From contig NZ_JAKLWS010000041.1 in assembly GCF_022012475.1 (NCBI RefSeq), positions 1 through 35,515 of the forward strand: a stretch of 35,515 bases of DNA, written 5' to 3'. Shown in pieces: positions 27,902 to 34,296 of this stretch. Under the pieces are notes generated by a model, which did no database searches, was not told the DNA's origin, and saw only the letters and a program-made list of their open reading frames with translations. Every line of letters begins with the position of its first letter. Within the stretch, counting starts at the first letter, position 1. The position numbers and the translations under genes are program-made. Source of the DNA: Rhodohalobacter sulfatireducens (lineage in GTDB: Bacteria > Bacteroidota > Rhodothermia > Balneolales > Balneolaceae).

Positions 27902-28888
27902 ATGAGTAAAAAGAAAACAATCTTATCAGGTATTCAACCCTCAGGAAAACTTCACATCGGGAACTATTTTGGAGCGATGCGCCAGCATATCCGCATGCAG
28001 GAGGAGGGAGATGCCTTTTATTTTCTTGCCAACTATCATTCACTGACCTCCATAAATGATGGAGAAAGGCTCAAAGAATATACGCTGGACGTTGTATTAG
28101 ATTATCTTGCACTGGGGCTCGATCCCAATAAGTGTACATTCTTTGCGCAATCTGATGTACCTCAAACAACAGAACTGGCATGGATTTTAGGAACGGTTAC
28201 CCCTGTTTCTCTGATGGAAAAAGGAGTCTCTTATAAAGACAAAGTTGCTCAGGGCCTGAACCCGAATATTGGTTTATTCAGTTATCCTATTTTGCAGGCT
28301 GCAGATATTTTGATCTATCATTCTGACCTGGTTCCGGTGGGCGAAGATCAAAAACAGAACATTGAAATATGCCGAGATCTTGCAGGTAAGTTGAATCGGG
28401 CTTATGATGATGAACTTTTGAAAATTCCCGAGGAATATATCGTTAAAAGCGTAGCAGTTGTTCCGGGTATCGATGGACAGAAAATGAGTAAATCCTACGA
28501 TAACACCATTCAAATTTTTGATGAAGGGAAGTCCCTGAAGAAACGGGTGATGTCCATTCAAACTGATTCAACTCCGCTTGAAGATCCGAAAGATCCTGAG
28601 TCTTGTAACGTTTTTGCATTGATCAAACTCTTCGCCGATGAAGATCAGAAGAGTCAGATTGCCGAAAAGTATCGATCAGGTGGATATGGATATGGTCACG
28701 CCAAAAAGGAACTGTTGGGAATGATAACGGATTACTTTGCTGAGGCCCGGGAAAAGCGAAAAGAATTAGAAAAGGATATGGATTACGTCCACGACGTATT
28801 GAAAGAAGGCGGAAAAAAAGCACGTGAACGAGCGGAAACCGTTATGGAACCGATCCGGTCTGCAACTGGATTATATAGAAGCTTTTAA
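27902..28888 (+). CDS. trpS: Tryptophan-tRNA ligase
   Basis: A 328-residue class I aminoacyl-tRNA synthetase. The HIGH-type motif is in PSGKLHIGNYFGAM (residues 15-28) and the KMSKS motif in GIDGQKMSKSYDNT (about 192-205); DSLxxE-type tryptophan pocket features around VGEDQKQNIEICRDLA are also typical of TrpRS. It charges tRNA-Trp with tryptophan and ATP. Its position in the trp operon downstream of the attenuator means that its expression should rise when charged tRNA-Trp falls, which is logical but not the common place for trpS. A 13-bp gap precedes a hairpin/array belonging to the next cassette. Confidence 0.97.
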   Translation: MSKKKTILSGIQPSGKLHIGNYFGAMRQHIRMQEEGDAFYFLANYHSLTSINDGERLKEYTLDVVLDYLALGLDPNKCTFFAQSDVPQTTELAWILGTVTPVSLMEKGVSYKDKVAQGLNPNIGLFSYPILQAADILIYHSDLVPVGEDQKQNIEICRDLAGKLNRAYDDELLKIPEEYIVKSVAVVPGIDGQKMSKSYDNTIQIFDEGKSLKKRVMSIQTDSTPLEDPKDPESCNVFALIKLFADEDQKSQIAEKYRSGGYGYGHAKKELLGMITDYFAEAREKRKELEKDMDYVHDVLKEGGKKARERAETVMEPIRSATGLYRSF

Positions 28889-28893
28889 ATAAT

Positions 28894-28950
28894 AGTAGCA
28901 AGTATTGAGTAGCGAGTAGTAAGATTTTCACTCTACTCAATACTTGTAGA
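28894..28950. repeat. Left GAGT-type array and hairpin of four-helix-bundle cassette 1
   Basis: GAGTA-type units (AGTATTGAGTAGCGAGTAGT) are followed by their complement: CAAGTATTGAGTAG (28899-28912) and CTACTCAATACTTG (28933-28946) form a perfect 14-bp stem with a 20-nt loop. It starts six bases after the trpS stop and could also serve as its terminator, although no T run follows. Confidence 0.85.
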
Positions 28951-28957
28951 ACTGAAT

Positions 28958-29314
28958 TTAGTTTTCTGAAAGCTTTTTGATGAATGAATAAAGCATTTTT
29001 TGAATTTCAGTTAAATCATTGTTGAGCTTATTATAATTCGAATCGTCTAAATAATTTAATTCTTTTGAAATGATAAGTTGAGTTTCCAGCTCAAATGAAG
29101 AACCATATGCGATATGTAAAAATCTTGAAAAATCTTTATCTGAATTTCTTCCGGCACCCTCTGCAATGTTCGAACTGATTGAGATTACACATCTTCTGAT
29201 TTGTGAGGTAAGCCCATATAGTTCATGTTTGGGATAATTTTGAGTCGCCATATAAACAGATGTAGCTATTTCAACAGATTTTTTCCAGACGGTAAGTTCT
29301 TTATAATTATGCAT
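28958..29314 (-). CDS. Four-helix-bundle protein (S23/IVP-like, TIGR02436 type)
   Basis: A 118-residue protein with the signature of the four-helix-bundle family: LTVWKKSVEIATSVYMAT, YPKHELYGLTSQIRRC, SISSNIAEGAGRNSDKDFSRFL and a final amphipathic helix (NNDLTEIQKMLYSFIKKL). Family members include proteins encoded in 23S rRNA intervening sequences and the Avd accessory proteins of diversity-generating retroelements, which bind nucleic acids; the role of free-standing copies is unknown. It is antisense to the trp operon between trpS and trpG and is bounded on both sides by GAGTA-type arrays, which suggests insertion as a unit. Confidence 0.93.
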   Translation of the reverse strand: MHNYKELTVWKKSVEIATSVYMATQNYPKHELYGLTSQIRRCVISISSNIAEGAGRNSDKDFSRFLHIAYGSSFELETQLIISKELNYLDDSNYNKLNNDLTEIQKMLYSFIKKLSEN

Positions 29315-29385
29315 TCTACTTTTTGATTTATTGATGGTTAGTTCTATCTATATGAACCAATTTTCTCGACTTCCTTACAAAAAAT

Positions 29386-29417
29386 CTCAATACTCACTAC
29401 TTGATACTCAATACTAA
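29386..29417. repeat. Right GAGT-type array of four-helix-bundle cassette 1
   Basis: CTCAATACTCACTACTTGAT and the following TACTCAATACT repeat, in inverted orientation, the units of the left array: TACTCAATACT (29405-29415) is the complement of AGTATTGAGTA (28901-28911). The array ends two bases before the trpG ATG and takes the place of its ribosome-binding region. Confidence 0.85.
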
Positions 29418-30002
29418 ATGATACTGATAATCGACAATTACGACTCCTTCACCTACAACCTGGTTCACATTGTGGCGACGGAAACGGACGATTACAAAGT
29501 GATTCGCAACGATGCGATGACCGTGGAGGAAGTCCGCGAATTGAATCCGGATAAAATTCTTATCTCGCCCGGACCCGGACGACCGGGGGATGCAGGCATC
29601 ACCGAAGAACTCATTGATACACTTGGATCTGAAATTCCCGTCCTTGGAGTCTGTCTTGGGCACCAGGCAATTGGAGATGTGTTCGGGGCAAAAGTGGTTT
29701 ACGCACCCACTTTGATGCACGGAAAAACATCGGAGATTTATCATGACGGGAAATCTGTTTTTGATGGAATTGAGGAAGGTTTTACAGCTACTCGATATCA
29801 TTCGCTGGTTTTAGATCCCGATACGATTCCAGAGGTACTTGAGATTACGGCCAAGACAGATGACGGCGTGATTATGGGAGTTCGACACAAATCCTATCCC
29901 ATCGAAGGAATTCAGTTTCACCCAGAAAGTATTTTGACAACTGAAGGTCCAAAGATCGTTAAGAACTGGCTGAAGATGAGCTATCAAAAAGTCAAAGTTT
30001 AA
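29418..30002 (+). CDS. trpG: Anthranilate synthase component II (glutamine amidotransferase)
   Basis: A 194-residue class I glutamine amidotransferase that supplies ammonia to TrpE. The nucleophile is Cys79 in LGVCLGHQAIG; the catalytic His168 and Glu170 are in IQFHPESILT; the oxyanion loop is PGPGRPGDAG at 51-60. Start, length and motifs are all normal. It begins right after a repeat array, with no Shine-Dalgarno. trpD starts 14 bases after its stop. Confidence 0.97.
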   Translation: MILIIDNYDSFTYNLVHIVATETDDYKVIRNDAMTVEEVRELNPDKILISPGPGRPGDAGITEELIDTLGSEIPVLGVCLGHQAIGDVFGAKVVYAPTLMHGKTSEIYHDGKSVFDGIEEGFTATRYHSLVLDPDTIPEVLEITAKTDDGVIMGVRHKSYPIEGIQFHPESILTTEGPKIVKNWLKMSYQKVKV

Positions 30003-30016
30003 AACAATTAAATATT

Positions 30017-31054
30017 GTGAGTAAAACATTTACAGAAATACTTGAAAAAGTTTCTAATCATGAACATCTCCCGGCTGATGAAGCCTCAGCAGCAATGCGG
30101 CTTATTTTGCATGGAGAAATTTCCAACGAGGAGATCGCCGCATTTTTGATGGGAATGAGAATGAAAGGGGAGACCGTCATCGAGTTAACCTCTTTTGTAA
30201 AAGAGATGCGTGAAGCCGCAGTTCGTGTTGAAGTTGATACGACAAATGCCGTGGATCTTTGTGGAACAGGCGGGGATAAATCCGGAACGTTTAATATCTC
30301 CACAACCGCCATGTTTATTGTAGCAGGTGCAGGTGTTCCGGTTTTAAAACATGGAAATCGAAGTGTATCCAGTAAAAGTGGTAGTTATGATGTTTTGGAA
30401 TCTCTTGGAGTGGTTCCGAATCTGCAGAAAGAGCAGGTTGAAGAACTTTTTAAAAAGACCGGAATGGCGTTCATGTTTGCACCCAATTTCCATCCGGCGA
30501 TGAAATATGTGATGCCGGCGCGCAGAGCTCTGAAGATGAGAACCTTTTTTAATATCCTCGGTCCGCTGGTAAATCCGGCGAATGTAAATTGTCAGGTGAT
30601 TGGAGCTTTTAATAAAGAAACGGCTCAAAAAATGATCCAGATCCTGGGTAATCTTCAAACAGAAAATGCTTACACCGTAAATGCTCATGATGGTTTAGAT
30701 GAAGTCAGCACCACATCACAAAGTGAAATTTTTGAACTCAAAACGTATCTCAGCGGCGATTCTGTAACTTTTGACCCGATCTCTCTTGGGTATGAAAAGA
30801 CAGATCACAAATCTTTGTTGGGCGGAGATTCGAAGAAAAATGCTGAGATTATGCTGAGCATTTTGGATGGAACATCAACCCGGGCTCAACGCGATATCGC
30901 TGAGTTAAATGCAACTTTTGCGATTCGTGCATCAAACATTACGGTTGACCTGGAAGAGGCGAAGCAGATGGCTGCTGAAAGTATCGATTCCGGGAAAGCC
31001 CGCCAAAAACTGGATCAGTTTATCAAAGAATCACAAGCGATTGCAGATCAATAA
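30017..31054 (+). CDS. trpD: Anthranilate phosphoribosyltransferase
   Basis: A 345-residue enzyme that joins anthranilate to PRPP. The conserved GTGGDKSGTFNISTTA segment (about 81-96) binds PRPP, and KHGNRSVSSKSGSYDVLE (about 110-127) contributes anthranilate and PRPP contacts. The start is a GTG (30017), the best match to the family N-terminus. The gene ends two bases before trpC, so translation is probably coupled. Confidence 0.97.
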   Translation: MSKTFTEILEKVSNHEHLPADEASAAMRLILHGEISNEEIAAFLMGMRMKGETVIELTSFVKEMREAAVRVEVDTTNAVDLCGTGGDKSGTFNISTTAMFIVAGAGVPVLKHGNRSVSSKSGSYDVLESLGVVPNLQKEQVEELFKKTGMAFMFAPNFHPAMKYVMPARRALKMRTFFNILGPLVNPANVNCQVIGAFNKETAQKMIQILGNLQTENAYTVNAHDGLDEVSTTSQSEIFELKTYLSGDSVTFDPISLGYEKTDHKSLLGGDSKKNAEIMLSILDGTSTRAQRDIAELNATFAIRASNITVDLEEAKQMAAESIDSGKARQKLDQFIKESQAIADQ

Positions 31055-31056
31055 GT

Positions 31057-31881
31057 ATGGCAGATATTCTTGAAAAAATAGCCAGTCAAACCCTCGAAGA
31101 CCTCAAAAAGAGAAAGCGGGAGATCTCGTTTCGGGATCTGGAATCTCTGAAAGGGTATGAGAAGGATCGGCTCAACTTTGCGGAAGCATTAAGGAGCGAC
31201 TCCGTTTCTATCATTGCTGAAGTAAAAAAAGCTTCACCTTCAAAAGGAGTGATTCGGGCTGACTTTGATGCTCTGAAAATAGCGGATGCCTATATCGAAA
31301 ATGGTGCCTCAGCGATTTCCATTTTGACAGACGAACCCTTCTTCCAGGGATCCCTCAAATATCTTGAACAGGTTTCGGATATTTCCTCTATCCCATTGTT
31401 GCGCAAAGATTTTATTATTGATCCATATCAGGTTAAAGAAGCCAAAGCATACGGAGCAGATGCCATACTTTTGATAGTTACGATGTATGAAGGGAATCAG
31501 CTGTCCGAGCTTATTGCAGCTGCAAACGAATTTGGAGTTCAGCCATTAGTAGAATGTTATGAGCAGGAAGAAGTTGAAAACTTAGATTGGGATGAGGTCC
31601 AAATTTTGGGAGTCAATAATCGCGACTTGAAGAAGTTTGAAGTGGATCTCCATCGTGGAATTGAACTGCTTGAGATGGCTCCGGATCAAGTTGTTACAGT
31701 TTCTGAAAGTGGAATTCATAAACCTGAAGATTTGATGAAACTGTATAAGCATAACATTCATTCTGCTCTTATAGGAGAACATTTTATGAGGCAAACTGAT
31801 ATTGGTGATGGTTTGAAACGATTCATCGATGAGTTCGAAGAGTTGAAAGCGAAAAGCAGCTATACGGAAGAGGAAGCTTAA
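31057..31881 (+). CDS. trpC: Indole-3-glycerol-phosphate synthase
   Basis: A 274-residue TIM-barrel enzyme closing the indole ring. The catalytic Glu and Lys are in IIAEVKKASPSKG (about residues 50-62), a second catalytic Lys in PLLRKDFIIDPYQV, and the phosphate-binding Ser in VSESGIHKPED. A short charged C-terminal tail (about a dozen residues) extends past the usual family end. It is packed between trpD (2 bp) and trpF (3 bp) and is not fused to trpF, unlike in enterobacteria. Confidence 0.96.
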   Translation: MADILEKIASQTLEDLKKRKREISFRDLESLKGYEKDRLNFAEALRSDSVSIIAEVKKASPSKGVIRADFDALKIADAYIENGASAISILTDEPFFQGSLKYLEQVSDISSIPLLRKDFIIDPYQVKEAKAYGADAILLIVTMYEGNQLSELIAAANEFGVQPLVECYEQEEVENLDWDEVQILGVNNRDLKKFEVDLHRGIELLEMAPDQVVTVSESGIHKPEDLMKLYKHNIHSALIGEHFMRQTDIGDGLKRFIDEFEELKAKSSYTEEEA

Positions 31882-31884
31882 TAT

Positions 31885-32532
31885 ATGGCACAAAAAGTGG
31901 ACACGAGAACAAAGGTTAAAATTTGTGGCATCACAACATTGGAAGACGCACGCTTTGTAGCCGGAGCACTCGCTGATTATCTTGGATTTATCTTTTACGA
32001 TGAAAGCCCTCGGTACATTGAACCGGCAAAAGCAGGAGCCATCATCAACTGGATTGAAGGACCTCAAAAAGTGGGAGTTTTTGTGAACCAGGCGTTGGAC
32101 GATGTTAATGATATCGCTACACAAACAGGAATAGACCTCGTTCAACTTCATGGAGATGAATCGCCGGGATATTGCGATATGATTAATTTCCCGATTATTA
32201 AAGCTTTTCATATCACCTCAGAAACTGAATCGGGTGAATTGGCGTCGGACATAGCCGACTATAAAAACTCAGCCGATTACTTCCTGTTTGATACCAAAAT
32301 CGAAGGGCTCTACGGCGGAACCGGGCAAACCTTTGATTGGTCGCTTTTAGAAAATCTCTCAATGGGGAAACCGTTTTTTCTCTCCGGTGGATTAAATGCT
32401 GATAACGTTCAACAAGCGATTGAAAAAGTATCACCGGATGTTGTGGACTTGTCCAGTGGATTGGAAGAATCACCCGGATTAAAGGACTTTGATAAGATTG
32501 AAGAATTTTTTGATGTGATGAGGAGGGTGTGA
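31885..32532 (+). CDS. trpF: Phosphoribosylanthranilate isomerase
   Basis: A 215-residue TIM barrel that performs the Amadori rearrangement of phosphoribosylanthranilate. The general-base Cys is in VKICGITTLEDA (near residues 11-22) and the general-acid Asp is in LFDTKIEGLYGGTGQTFDW, followed by FFLSGGLNADNV for phosphate binding. All expected motifs are present. Its TGA stop (32530-32532) lies inside the first copy of a GAGT-type repeat (GTGAGTTTGTGAGT at 32529-32542) that marks the left flank of the second four-helix-bundle cassette. Confidence 0.95.
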   Translation: MAQKVDTRTKVKICGITTLEDARFVAGALADYLGFIFYDESPRYIEPAKAGAIINWIEGPQKVGVFVNQALDDVNDIATQTGIDLVQLHGDESPGYCDMINFPIIKAFHITSETESGELASDIADYKNSADYFLFDTKIEGLYGGTGQTFDWSLLENLSMGKPFFLSGGLNADNVQQAIEKVSPDVVDLSSGLEESPGLKDFDKIEEFFDVMRRV

Positions 32533-32620
32533 GTTTGTGAGTTCTGAGTTGATGAGTTTTATAGTTGGGAAATCCTTGAATAAATTTACACTCACTAAAT
32601 AAAGAACTCATCAACTCAAA
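32529..32620. repeat. Left GAGT-type array of four-helix-bundle cassette 2
   Basis: GAGTT-type units run from 32529 to 32560; TGAGTTGATGAGTT (32545-32558) and AACTCATCAACTCA (32605-32618) form a perfect 14-bp inverted repeat with a 46-nt interior. The same stem length occurs at cassette 1, but with a different unit. Confidence 0.88.
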
Positions 32621-32630
32621 AGACTCTGTC

Positions 32631-33008
32631 ATGGAAAGTGAATATTACTTCAAATTTGAAGATTTAGAGATGTACCAGAAAGCATTGGATTTTGCAGATG
32701 TTGTTAATGGTCAAGTTAAATCATATCCAAAACACGAAAAGTATCAACTAGCTTCTCAATTTATAAGAGCGGCAGATTCCATAGCTCTTAATATTGCTGA
32801 AGGTTCAGCAGGATCTCATGCAAATTTTAATCGATATCTACAGATGGCTTGGGATAGTGCTCATGAGTGTGTCGTTTGTAGTACCAAGTCACGGAGAAGA
32901 GTTTATATCTCAGAAAAAGTGGATGAAGAAAACCGAGCTGCCGTAACTGAGTTATCTAAAATGATTACTTCTTACAAAAAGTATTTAAAGAAAAAAATGA
33001 AAACGTGA
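32631..33008 (+). CDS. Four-helix-bundle protein (S23/IVP-like), second copy
   Basis: A 125-residue relative of the gene at 28958-29314, with the same family landmarks: FEDLEMYQKALDFADVV, YPKHEKYQLASQFIRAADSI, LNIAEGSAGSHANFNRYLQMAW, and a Lys-rich final helix (ITSYKKYLKKKMKT). Sequence identity to the first copy is low outside those motifs, so the two are not a recent duplication. It is in the sense orientation of the trp operon between trpF and trpB. Its TGA lies in the same repeat word (GTGAGTTTGTGAGT) as the trpF stop. The basic C-terminus is consistent with nucleic-acid binding; the function is unknown. Confidence 0.92.
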   Translation: MESEYYFKFEDLEMYQKALDFADVVNGQVKSYPKHEKYQLASQFIRAADSIALNIAEGSAGSHANFNRYLQMAWDSAHECVVCSTKSRRRVYISEKVDEENRAAVTELSKMITSYKKYLKKKMKT

Positions 33009-33096
33009 GTTTGTGAGTCTGTGAGTTCTGAGTTGTTGAGGTTTTTTTTCTCATCAACTCATAAAACTCATCAACTCAAAAACTCAGAACTTAACA
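33005..33096. repeat. Right GAGT-type array of four-helix-bundle cassette 2
   Basis: GAGTT-type units at 33005-33040 are followed after a T run by their complements at 33051-33090. GTTCTGAGTT and AACTCAGAAC form a perfect outer stem, and GAGTTGTTGAG pairs with CTCATCAACTC with one mismatch. The word GTGAGTTTGTGAGT is shared exactly with the left array (32529-32542). The array ends just before the trpB ATG. Confidence 0.88.
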
Positions 33097-33099
33097 ACT

Positions 33100-34296
33100 A
33101 TGAAATACACAGCACCAACTAAAACAGGTTATTTTGGCGAATACGGGGGGAAGTTTGTCCCCGAAATTTTGATTCCGGCTATTGAAGAGTTGGAAATTGC
33201 CTACGAAGAAACGCAGAATGATCCGGTTTTTCAGAAAGAGTACCATGATCTGCTTCAAGAGTACGTGGGGCGTCCGACGAAATTAACATATGCTAATCGT
33301 TTGACTGAGCACTATAGACGGGGGAAAATTTATCTCAAGCGAGAAGATCTGTGTCATACCGGGGCTCATAAAATCAACAATGCCATTGGACAGCTTTTGC
33401 TTGCACGAAAGATGGGGAAAAGCCGAATTATTGCAGAAACCGGGGCAGGTCAGCATGGTGTTGCAACAGCTACTGCATGTGCTAAGTTTGGTTTCGATTG
33501 TGTAATCTACATGGGTGCTGAGGATATGGAACGCCAGAAATTAAATGTGGATCGTATGCAGCTTTTGGGTGCTGAAGTTCGTGAGGTCACAAGCGGTTCA
33601 CAGACACTAAAAGACGCCACAAACGAAGCGATTCGCGACTGGGTAACCAATGTTGATGACACATTTTATATCATCGGTTCGGTCGTTGGGCCGCACCCAT
33701 ATCCCATGATGACACGAAATTTTCATCGTGTGATTGGGGAGGAGACAAAGGACCAGTTGAAGAAAGAGGAAGGTCGTTTGCCGAATTATCTGTTGGCTTG
33801 TGTTGGTGGCGGCAGTAACGCTATTGGTTTTTTCTATCCGTTTCTTGAAGATGAGGATGTAAAAATGATTGGAATTGAAGCCGCCGGCCTGGGAGCAGAT
33901 ACCGATCAAACGGCAGCTACCCTCACCAAGGGAACGCGAGGTGTTTTGCACGGCTCACTCAGTTATCTTCTGCAAAGTGATGAGGGGCAGATTCAACTGG
34001 CGCATTCCATCAGTGCAGGATTGGACTACCCCGGAATCGGACCGGAACATTCATATCTCTATGATACTAATCGGGTTCATTATTTTGGTGTTACGGATTC
34101 TGAAGCGATGGCTGCAGTAAAACTGTTGTCCATAAAAGAGGGAATTATACCGGCTATAGAGACTGCGCACGCTTTAGCTTATCTCGATAAATTGATGCCG
34201 ATTACTCAAAAAGATGATATTGTGGTTGTGAACTGTTCTGGCCGTGGTGATAAAGACATGAAAACAATATCTGAATGGTTCTCCGAGCAGAAATAG
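33100..34296 (+). CDS. trpB: Tryptophan synthase beta chain
   Basis: A 398-residue PLP enzyme that condenses indole and serine. The PLP Lys is Lys91 in [15 protein letters not shown]; the catalytic Glu is in [11 protein letters not shown]; the phosphate-binding loop is [17 protein letters not shown] and NCSGRGDKD close the active site. It is the TrpB1 type that works with TrpA. The trpA gene normally follows, but the 735 bp after the stop contain no such gene. Confidence 0.97.

Follow-up and report, generated by a model that had tools for sequence, protein, structure and literature searches.

Two IVP cassettes between protein-coding genes

We analysed a 35,515-nucleotide contig of Rhodohalobacter sulfatireducens (NZ_JAKLWS010000041.1; this whole stretch is hereafter called the window), in which two small genes, each enclosed by short tandem arrays, lie between genes read as trpS and trpG and between genes read as trpF and trpB. 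Both open reading frames (ORFs; 28958-29314 and 32631-33008) encode four-helix-bundle proteins of the family PF05635/TIGR02436, the 23S ribosomal RNA (rRNA) intervening-sequence protein (IVP), with profile scores of 141.1 and 85.5 bits against a cut-off of 33.8, and of 139.9 and 83.2 bits against a cut-off of 24. We call each gene together with its flanking arrays, or arms, a cassette. The features of cassette 2, which lies between trpF and trpB, are as follows.

31885-32532, + strand: host gene, trpF by our reading; most relatives have a longer C-terminal tail
32528-32560, + strand: left-flank G-type array, inward-reading; contains the trpF stop codon (32530-32532)
32602-32626, + strand: left-flank C-type array; inverted partner at 32542-32566
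32631-33008, + strand: IVP gene, 125 amino acids; PF05635 and TIGR02436 above cut-off
33004-33041, + strand: right-flank G-type array, a direct copy of the left G-type array; contains the IVP stop codon (33006-33008)
33050-33096, + strand: right-flank C-type array (right arm); ends 3 nt 5' of the trpB start codon
33100-34296, + strand: host gene read as trpB

The two flanks of cassette 2 matched each other in both the inverted and the direct orientation with a local score of 29, which none of 1000 dinucleotide shuffles reached (best 18 inverted and 19.5 direct), so that the array-flanked layout given in the preliminary description of this DNA was borne out. Eight thymines (T8) separate the G-type and C-type arrays of the right flank. 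The 14-bp hairpins of that description stood in part: a perfect one lies in cassette 1 (28899-28912 with 28933-28946), and those of cassette 2 are imperfect, for example 25 nt at 84% (32542-32566 with 32597-32621) and 17 nt at 94% (33024-33040 with 33075-33091). The units, given as GAGTT and GAGTATT, do differ between the cassettes, but are better described as a degenerate period of about 7 nt, with words such as GTGAGTT, CTGAGTT and GATGAGTT in cassette 2. Cassette 1, between trpS and trpG, has the following features.

28893-28928, + strand: arm adjoining trpS; inverted partner at 29381-29416 (36 nt, 78%)
28933-28946, + strand: 3' half of the 14-bp perfect hairpin; pairs with 28899-28912
28958-29314, - strand: IVP gene, 118 amino acids; PF05635 and TIGR02436 above cut-off
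29351-29379, - strand: promoter-like motif TGTAAGG-N14-GGYTCWTA, common to comEC and recA homologues
29381-29416, + strand: arm adjoining trpG; inverted partner of 28893-28928

Its flanks match in the inverted orientation only, with a score of 20 that no shuffle equalled (0 of 1000; best 17); the direct score of 11 was reached by 69 of the 1000. Scores across the two cassettes were 8.5, 10.5, 12 and 15.5, against 29 and 20 for their own flanks, and the two cassettes have different units.

At the start of the contig (1-95) there is a perfect GTTACTG array of 13.6 copies, beside which no IVP gene occurs within the window. It is possibly an arm cut by the assembly.

Matched inverted arms across many cassettes

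The genome itself, a 5.10-Mb draft, gave 13 PF05635 matches, two being halves of one gene, and thus contains 12 IVP genes, two of which (L011 and L013) have internal stops. The flanks show a different unit at nearly every gene. IVP genes were found in 33 of the 40 relatives searched and in many Bacteroidota, and the closest named matches among those listed belong to Balneolaceae. The set was enlarged by 80 stretches from relatives and by 80 named loci (the best 80 of at least 552), whose titles name Balneolaceae, Bacteroidota, Ignavibacteriota relatives and one Chlorobi. A match was present at 201 loci, from which 177 cassettes were kept (more than 50 bits, both flanks at least 230 nt, duplicates removed).

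In each of five genomes, left flanks had 5.8-7.7 8-mers in common with the reverse-complemented right flank of the same cassette and 1.4-2.1 with those of other cassettes (51 cassettes, leaving out L012, the same gene as L010, and L013, missed by the hidden Markov model (HMM)). Over all 177 cassettes, the mean local score of the left arm against the reverse complement of its own right arm was 20.7, and permuted partners averaged 11.6 (standard deviation (sd) 0.24), with a highest value of 12.7 in 2000 permutations. The own right arm was the best in 42 of the 177; per cassette, the number of foreign right arms (of 176) that equalled or exceeded it had a median of 3. The difference held within single genomes, with own pairs scoring 20.8 and other pairs 11.3 in 14 genomes that have at least three cassettes each (82 cassettes). 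These values confirm the earlier proposal of units that are matched between the two flanks of a cassette and change from one cassette to the next; flank units were neither unrelated within cassettes nor identical across all of them. A direct match above the 99th percentile of cross pairs was additionally present in 21 of the 177. General abundance of such arms was considered and rejected: a scan that recovers 76.8% of the 177 cassettes gave, in 400 kb of genome G012, 7 matches against 9 in shuffled sequence for the first 200 kb and 8 against 3 for the second; two matches of the second half belong to one IVP cassette, and one of the first looks like a solo array by eye.

The arms have a common format. 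The best-fitting period was 7 in 270 of 306 arms and 8 in 27. Among the 92 cassettes whose own match beat all of 30 sampled partners, 90% had more G than C on the inward-reading strand of the left arm. In 115 cassettes, the median distance between the start of the left arm and the first base of the stop codon upstream was 3 nt (quartiles -6 and 13.5). Both neighbours are co-directional with the IVP gene in 73 of 77 named cassettes; of the other 100, from the genus and the order, 57 are co-directional with both neighbours and 26 opposed to both.

Arms of the same kind occur in Cyanobacteria. An IVP relative is encoded in 25 plasmid records, nearly all cyanobacterial. Among the ten that were read, the own inverted match exceeded all nine cross pairs in L264, L266, L268, L269, L270 and L271, narrowly so in L268 (29.5 against 29) and L271 (17 against 16), and was not the best in L263, L265, L267 and L272. 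The units include GGGAACA, GGTGACA and GGGTGTA; in L264 the two arrays point the same way. Matched inverted arms around IVP genes are thus real and general, across several bacterial phyla.

Several of these plasmid genes (L264, L268, L271) lie inside operons of clustered regularly interspaced short palindromic repeats (CRISPR), in the order cas6, IVP, cas4 in Pseudanabaena and Anabaena sp. 90, and cas10/cmr2, IVP, cmr3 in Picosynechococcus. On an Anabaena sp. 90 plasmid (L324, 10103-10131), a short period-7 array stands between a reverse transcriptase gene and the avd gene of a diversity-generating retroelement (DGR).

The IVP is conserved

The IVP is under purifying selection, with a median ratio of non-synonymous to synonymous change (dN/dS) of 0.07 (obtained in 36 of 43 pairs). 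In pairs of 80-90% identity, most silent sites have changed, dS being mostly above 0.6 or not computable. Solved homologues of the window proteins (2gsc and 2rld) have five chains each. Profile searches showed that the window genes are not Y1 (IS200-like) transposases. The IVP of cassette 1 fell below the cut-offs of the Avd profiles (DivGenRetAVD 28.3 bits against 80, bAvd 28.2 against 40), and no Avd match was listed for that of cassette 2. A phage collection contained one record with an IVP relative, at 27% identity.

A divergent IVP subfamily (L013, L062, L071 and L081) has long hairpins repeated in direct orientation on either side of the gene.

Arms change together over time

We compared left arms with the right arms of other cassettes at the same site, ordered by IVP identity. 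Site labels rest on blastp clusters of the neighbouring genes, which misplace some draft contigs and inverted cassettes. The cross-match was 20.6 at an identity of 90% or more, 20.1 at 80-90%, 19.3 at 70-80%, 14.4 at 60-65%, 12.3 at 50-55% and 11.2 at 40-50%, whereas own arms scored 18.4-21.3 throughout. When the arms themselves were cut out (153 cassettes), agreement between left arms fell from 0.74 to 0.24, with own arms at 0.54-0.57 and a background of 0.21; the own value is biased upward here because arms were selected by their own match, and the cross-score series is free of that bias. L027 and L151, at one site, have units of the GGCAAAAG and the GGCAGAAG type, respectively, each present in both arms. 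The match between arms of different cassettes at one site thus decays to background, that between the two arms of one cassette persists, and the data support homogenisation, the two arms evolving in concert. A comparison of whole flanks at the same site, in which the own flank beat the best orthologous left flank in 2 of 108 cases, was judged invalid, since sequence common to the orthologues was included.

The arms are probably constrained as well: at 80-90% IVP identity the cross-arm match (20.1) equals the own match (20.2), when silent sites have mostly changed. The constraint is perhaps imposed by the IVP.

Units also follow the IVP in part from site to site. Genus pairs without any common neighbour had cross-matches of 15.6 at 70-80% IVP identity (n = 34, cassettes of different genomes; background 11.2), 13.7 at 60-70% (n = 134), 12.4 at 50-60% (n = 167) and 11.2 at 40-50% (n = 533). 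The different-site class of the same-site identity series contains some same-site pairs, and the genus comparison drops every pair that shares a neighbour; the different-site pairs are not independent, L167 being in 9 of the 30 listed. L016, L018 and L021 have their unit fully in common with L022, a cassette at another site. Unit and IVP lineage thus travel together in part. Of the earlier suggestion that flanks are made or homogenised per insertion, homogenisation is retained and making afresh is not.

Histories of individual sites

The most frequent neighbour pairs were common to 25, 21, 7 and 7 loci. From their sequences we take the three commonest to be fadB/fadA-like, thiolase/acyl-CoA dehydrogenase-like and odhB/lpd-like, and smaller groups to be carA/carB- and sdhA/sdhB-like, all of these names being our own reading and not taken from an annotation. 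In an IVP tree, poorly resolved with 106 columns, six of nine genus sites formed one side of a branch, and the two commonest sites needed 14 and 13 changes, compared with 21.8 and 19.3 for shuffled labels.

Among 30 trpF-trpB regions, three contain an IVP gene, 11 a gene-less array hairpin and 16 neither, although one of the 16 (L093) may contain a remnant. Of 30 trpS-trpG regions, five contain the gene, and we counted six decayed remnants and five solo arrays. Solo, decayed and empty states were all assigned by eye. The gene-less arrays probably mark losses. No seed of the unit was seen by eye in array-free trpF-trpB relatives, which speaks against an origin of the unit in target DNA, as had been considered earlier.

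The trpF-trpB IVPs of G000 and G005 (L008 and L073) are only 36% identical, and those of G005 and G019 73%; the difference reflects replacement or separate insertion at one site. L144 and L007, which occupy one site, likewise have different IVPs (34%). TrpF of both G000 and G005 is without the C-terminal tail present in most relatives. The ORF is found in opposite orientation, with both neighbours swapped, in L002 and L075 (IVPs 75% identical) and, at a second site, in L030 relative to L027, L151, L028 and L032 (78, 74, 65 and 60%); in a third swapped case, L158, the IVP is about 30% identical.

Other inverted repeats occupy the same intergenic regions in two relatives. The last 230 bases before trpG in G005 (L114) hold a different inverted-repeat insert beside an apparent array remnant, and the trpF-trpB region of G012 (L086) contains another inverted repeat, one with a long mirror-image stem.

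A motif common to cassettes and competence genes

The motif TGTAAGG-N14-GGYTCWTA found in cassette 1 occurs 30 times in its own genome and not once read backwards. When up to two mismatches were allowed, 46 of 93 genus cassettes had it upstream; the reversed pattern and the 3' side gave 0 of 93 each. In the own genome (L273-L302) it precedes, among other genes, four IVPs, a comEC-type gene (PF03772), a comEA-like HHH_3 protein, recA (ORF 155 nt downstream) and a gene that we read as comF-like (DZR_2 below cut-off). It also precedes five Y1_Tnp genes above cut-off and one below, as well as PDDEXK_3, DUF559 and phage-integrase SAM proteins. In two relatives (L325-L347), its 20 matches in G012 include comEC, comEA-like and recA homologues and five IVPs, and its 3 matches in G023 include the comF-like homologue and one IVP. 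We infer that the motif is a promoter marking a competence regulon, which small mobile-looking genes (Y1 transposases, PDDEXK_3, DUF559 and IVPs) possibly share.

One of the motifs (L302) stands before a 231-amino-acid protein with an IVP-like stretch detected by a purpose-built HMM and no Pfam match.

Discussion

We propose, with a probability of about one half, that the cassettes are small mobile elements of the IVP/intervening-sequence (IVS) kind residing in protein-coding operons, whose arms are kept matched by copying at the DNA level. Each consists of one conserved four-helix-bundle gene between two inverted arms of roughly 7-nt units. It is the format of the arms (period 7, inverted, G over C on the inward-reading strand) that is fixed, and not their sequence; one arm begins at the stop codon of the gene upstream, and the other stops a short way ahead of the gene that follows. 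Gene conversion, or alternatively a template switch within a hairpin, would keep the inverted arms alike, slippage would spread variants along one arm, and inversion of the ORF would be the crossover product of arm-to-arm exchange. The IVP is predicted to bind the arms. In the genus of the window, the elements might further act or spread during natural transformation, a more tentative link drawn because about half of the genus cassettes carry the promoter-like motif of competence genes.

Several observations weigh against this proposal. About a quarter of the cassettes have no clear arms, the detector finding them in 76.8% of the 177. L079 and L167, whose IVPs are 81% identical at different sites, have a cross score of 10.8 and no common unit. 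None of 241 within-genome IVP pairs at different sites exceeded 70% identity, so that no recent intragenomic copying was found; from 37 of 3883 between-genome pairs about 2.3 would be expected, and the deficit is only a hint. Opposite orientations may also arise by separate insertions. No insertion event, junction or target duplication was seen, the material containing no close pair of filled and empty strains. The test of mismatch types described below depends on gapped local alignment of degenerate arrays, and per cassette it leaned towards G-U-type mismatches, which were the more frequent in 50 and the less frequent in 36 (p = 0.16). As for transformation, few cassettes of other genera have the motif (4 of the 77 named ones), and cassette 2 has no exact copy.

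The arms might instead be held together by selection. If they pair in the operon messenger RNA, selection on pairing would preserve their complementarity, either closing the IVP ORF in a loop that brings the upstream stop near the downstream start, or allowing excision by RNase III as in 23S rRNA IVSs. The position of 73 of the 77 named cassettes between the stop and start of co-directional genes and the arm start 3 nt from the stop codon fit this view, as does the 28-bp terminal stem of the Coxiella 23S IVS, cut by RNase III (PMC4990558; the literature is cited here from excerpts of the papers). We nevertheless consider RNA pairing unlikely: G-U-compatible mismatches were no more frequent than A-C ones (213 and 211 in 123 cassettes), the IVP ORF opposes both neighbours in 26 of the 100 genus and order cassettes, and no Rfam family matched 28500-33400. 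The balance of mismatches, together with the opposite ORF orientations, favours DNA-level exchange between inverted arms. Selection could also act through the protein, each IVP binding its own unit so that the arms stay alike without any copying, comparable to repetitive extragenic palindromes (REP) and their associated transposases (RAYT). The partial tracking of IVP lineage by unit type, the low dN/dS, and arms that change more slowly than silent sites would all follow. Binding is itself a prediction, however; L079 and L167 have quite different units despite their similar IVPs, and recognition alone does not yield opposite ORF orientations. We regard it as rather improbable as the full account.

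The remaining explanations concern the origin of the arrays. That each insertion builds its arms from local DNA would explain why nearly every cassette in one genome has its own unit, but relatives at other sites partly share units, which would not be expected of units made at the target; with no seed seen by eye in the array-free trpF-trpB regions, we give this idea very little credence. It is just as hard to believe that the arrays are selected as frame-closing sequences, a 7-nt period with a stop in each unit ending read-in translation in all frames. Inward stop codons are indeed in excess (left arms have 661 and their dinucleotide shuffles 603, sd 12; for right arms the counts are 608 and 580, sd 13), and the upstream stop is TAG in 39 of 73 named cassettes as opposed to 41 of 152 other ORFs at the same loci (p = 0.0002). 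The excess is only 5-10%, however, CAG and AGT are more enriched than TGA, and base shuffles close all three frames in 34% of cases, the arms themselves in 39% and 43%. Plain slippage, with independent arrays alike by chance or base composition, can draw on heptamer arrays in cyanobacterial plasmids that do not flank an IVP gene (4 of 6 and 2 of 4 period-7 arrays in two stretches). It is refuted for the set as a whole, the own-pair match exceeding every permutation and the window cassettes every shuffle, and its probability is negligible.

Beyond the mobile-element proposal itself, we entertain a bolder one, which we think is probably not correct in full: the cassettes may represent a mobile element of a novel kind, in which recognition of the ends depends on their format, as inverted, inward G-rich arms of about 7-nt period, and not on their sequence. 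Its lineage-specific word would drift freely under arm-to-arm re-matching, and in at least one genus its expression would be linked to natural transformation. Its arms and solo remains would account for part of the heptamer repeats found in Cyanobacteria, Bacteroidota and their relatives. Integron cassettes, with attC sites and an integrase, served solely as an analogy for recognition by structure.

The cassettes give testable biology to genes that have been named only for their 23S rRNA context and for which we found no function in the literature searched, namely their arms, their place in central operons and, in one genus, the motif of competence genes. They show concerted evolution in a natural setting, between inverted arms separated by a few hundred bases, and raise the question of how a protein would recognise ends without a fixed sequence. 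Their function and route of movement, as given above, are conjectural. They also provide a possible origin for TAACTGA heptamers, which occur in overlapping phyla (Cyanobacteria, Bacteroidetes) and have no evident mechanism of horizontal spread (PMC4679880).

The preliminary description knew of no comparable system. The protein family and 23S IVSs were already known, and a Coxiella IVS combines a stem and heptamers with the same kind of gene; the flank format is what we found undescribed in the literature searched. Among the papers listed, available as open-access full text and represented by excerpts, none joins an IVP with such arms outside rRNA, subscription journals and preprints being outside this scope. 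Miniature inverted-repeat transposable elements and insertion sequences have inverted ends and gene-less copies, as the cassettes do, and differ in that the cassettes of one genome lack a shared end sequence. REP/RAYT systems likewise couple short palindromic repeats to a single gene lineage (PMC3733652), although the cassette gene is not a Y1 transposase and no fixed tag was seen. With the DGR accessory protein Avd the IVP shares a homologous fold family (PMC10053308), but neither window protein comes near the cut-offs for Avd and bAvd. Borg tandem repeats are likewise fast-evolving and of independent origin (PMC9879509), and the excerpted text does not mention paired inverted arms around a gene. 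The short tandemly repeated repetitive sequences (STRRs) of cyanobacteria and the TAACTGA repeats resemble the arms in their tandem 7-nt period and intergenic position, whereas the excerpts of PMC4679880 mention neither an IVP gene nor paired inverted arms.

The closest likeness in protein family and complementary ends is to the 23S rRNA IVS; the cassettes of the window lie between protein-coding genes and not in a 23S rRNA gene. In Coxiella burnetii, two to three tandem heptamers (GACAGAT) precede the S23/IVP ORF within the IVS, and a homopentamer has been reported for the family in Xanthomonas (PMC4990558). According to the same paper, the ORF in Coxiella is in decay and probably without expression (PMC4990558), unlike the IVP studied here, which is under purifying selection and stands between heptamer arrays that are present on both sides and specific to the lineage.
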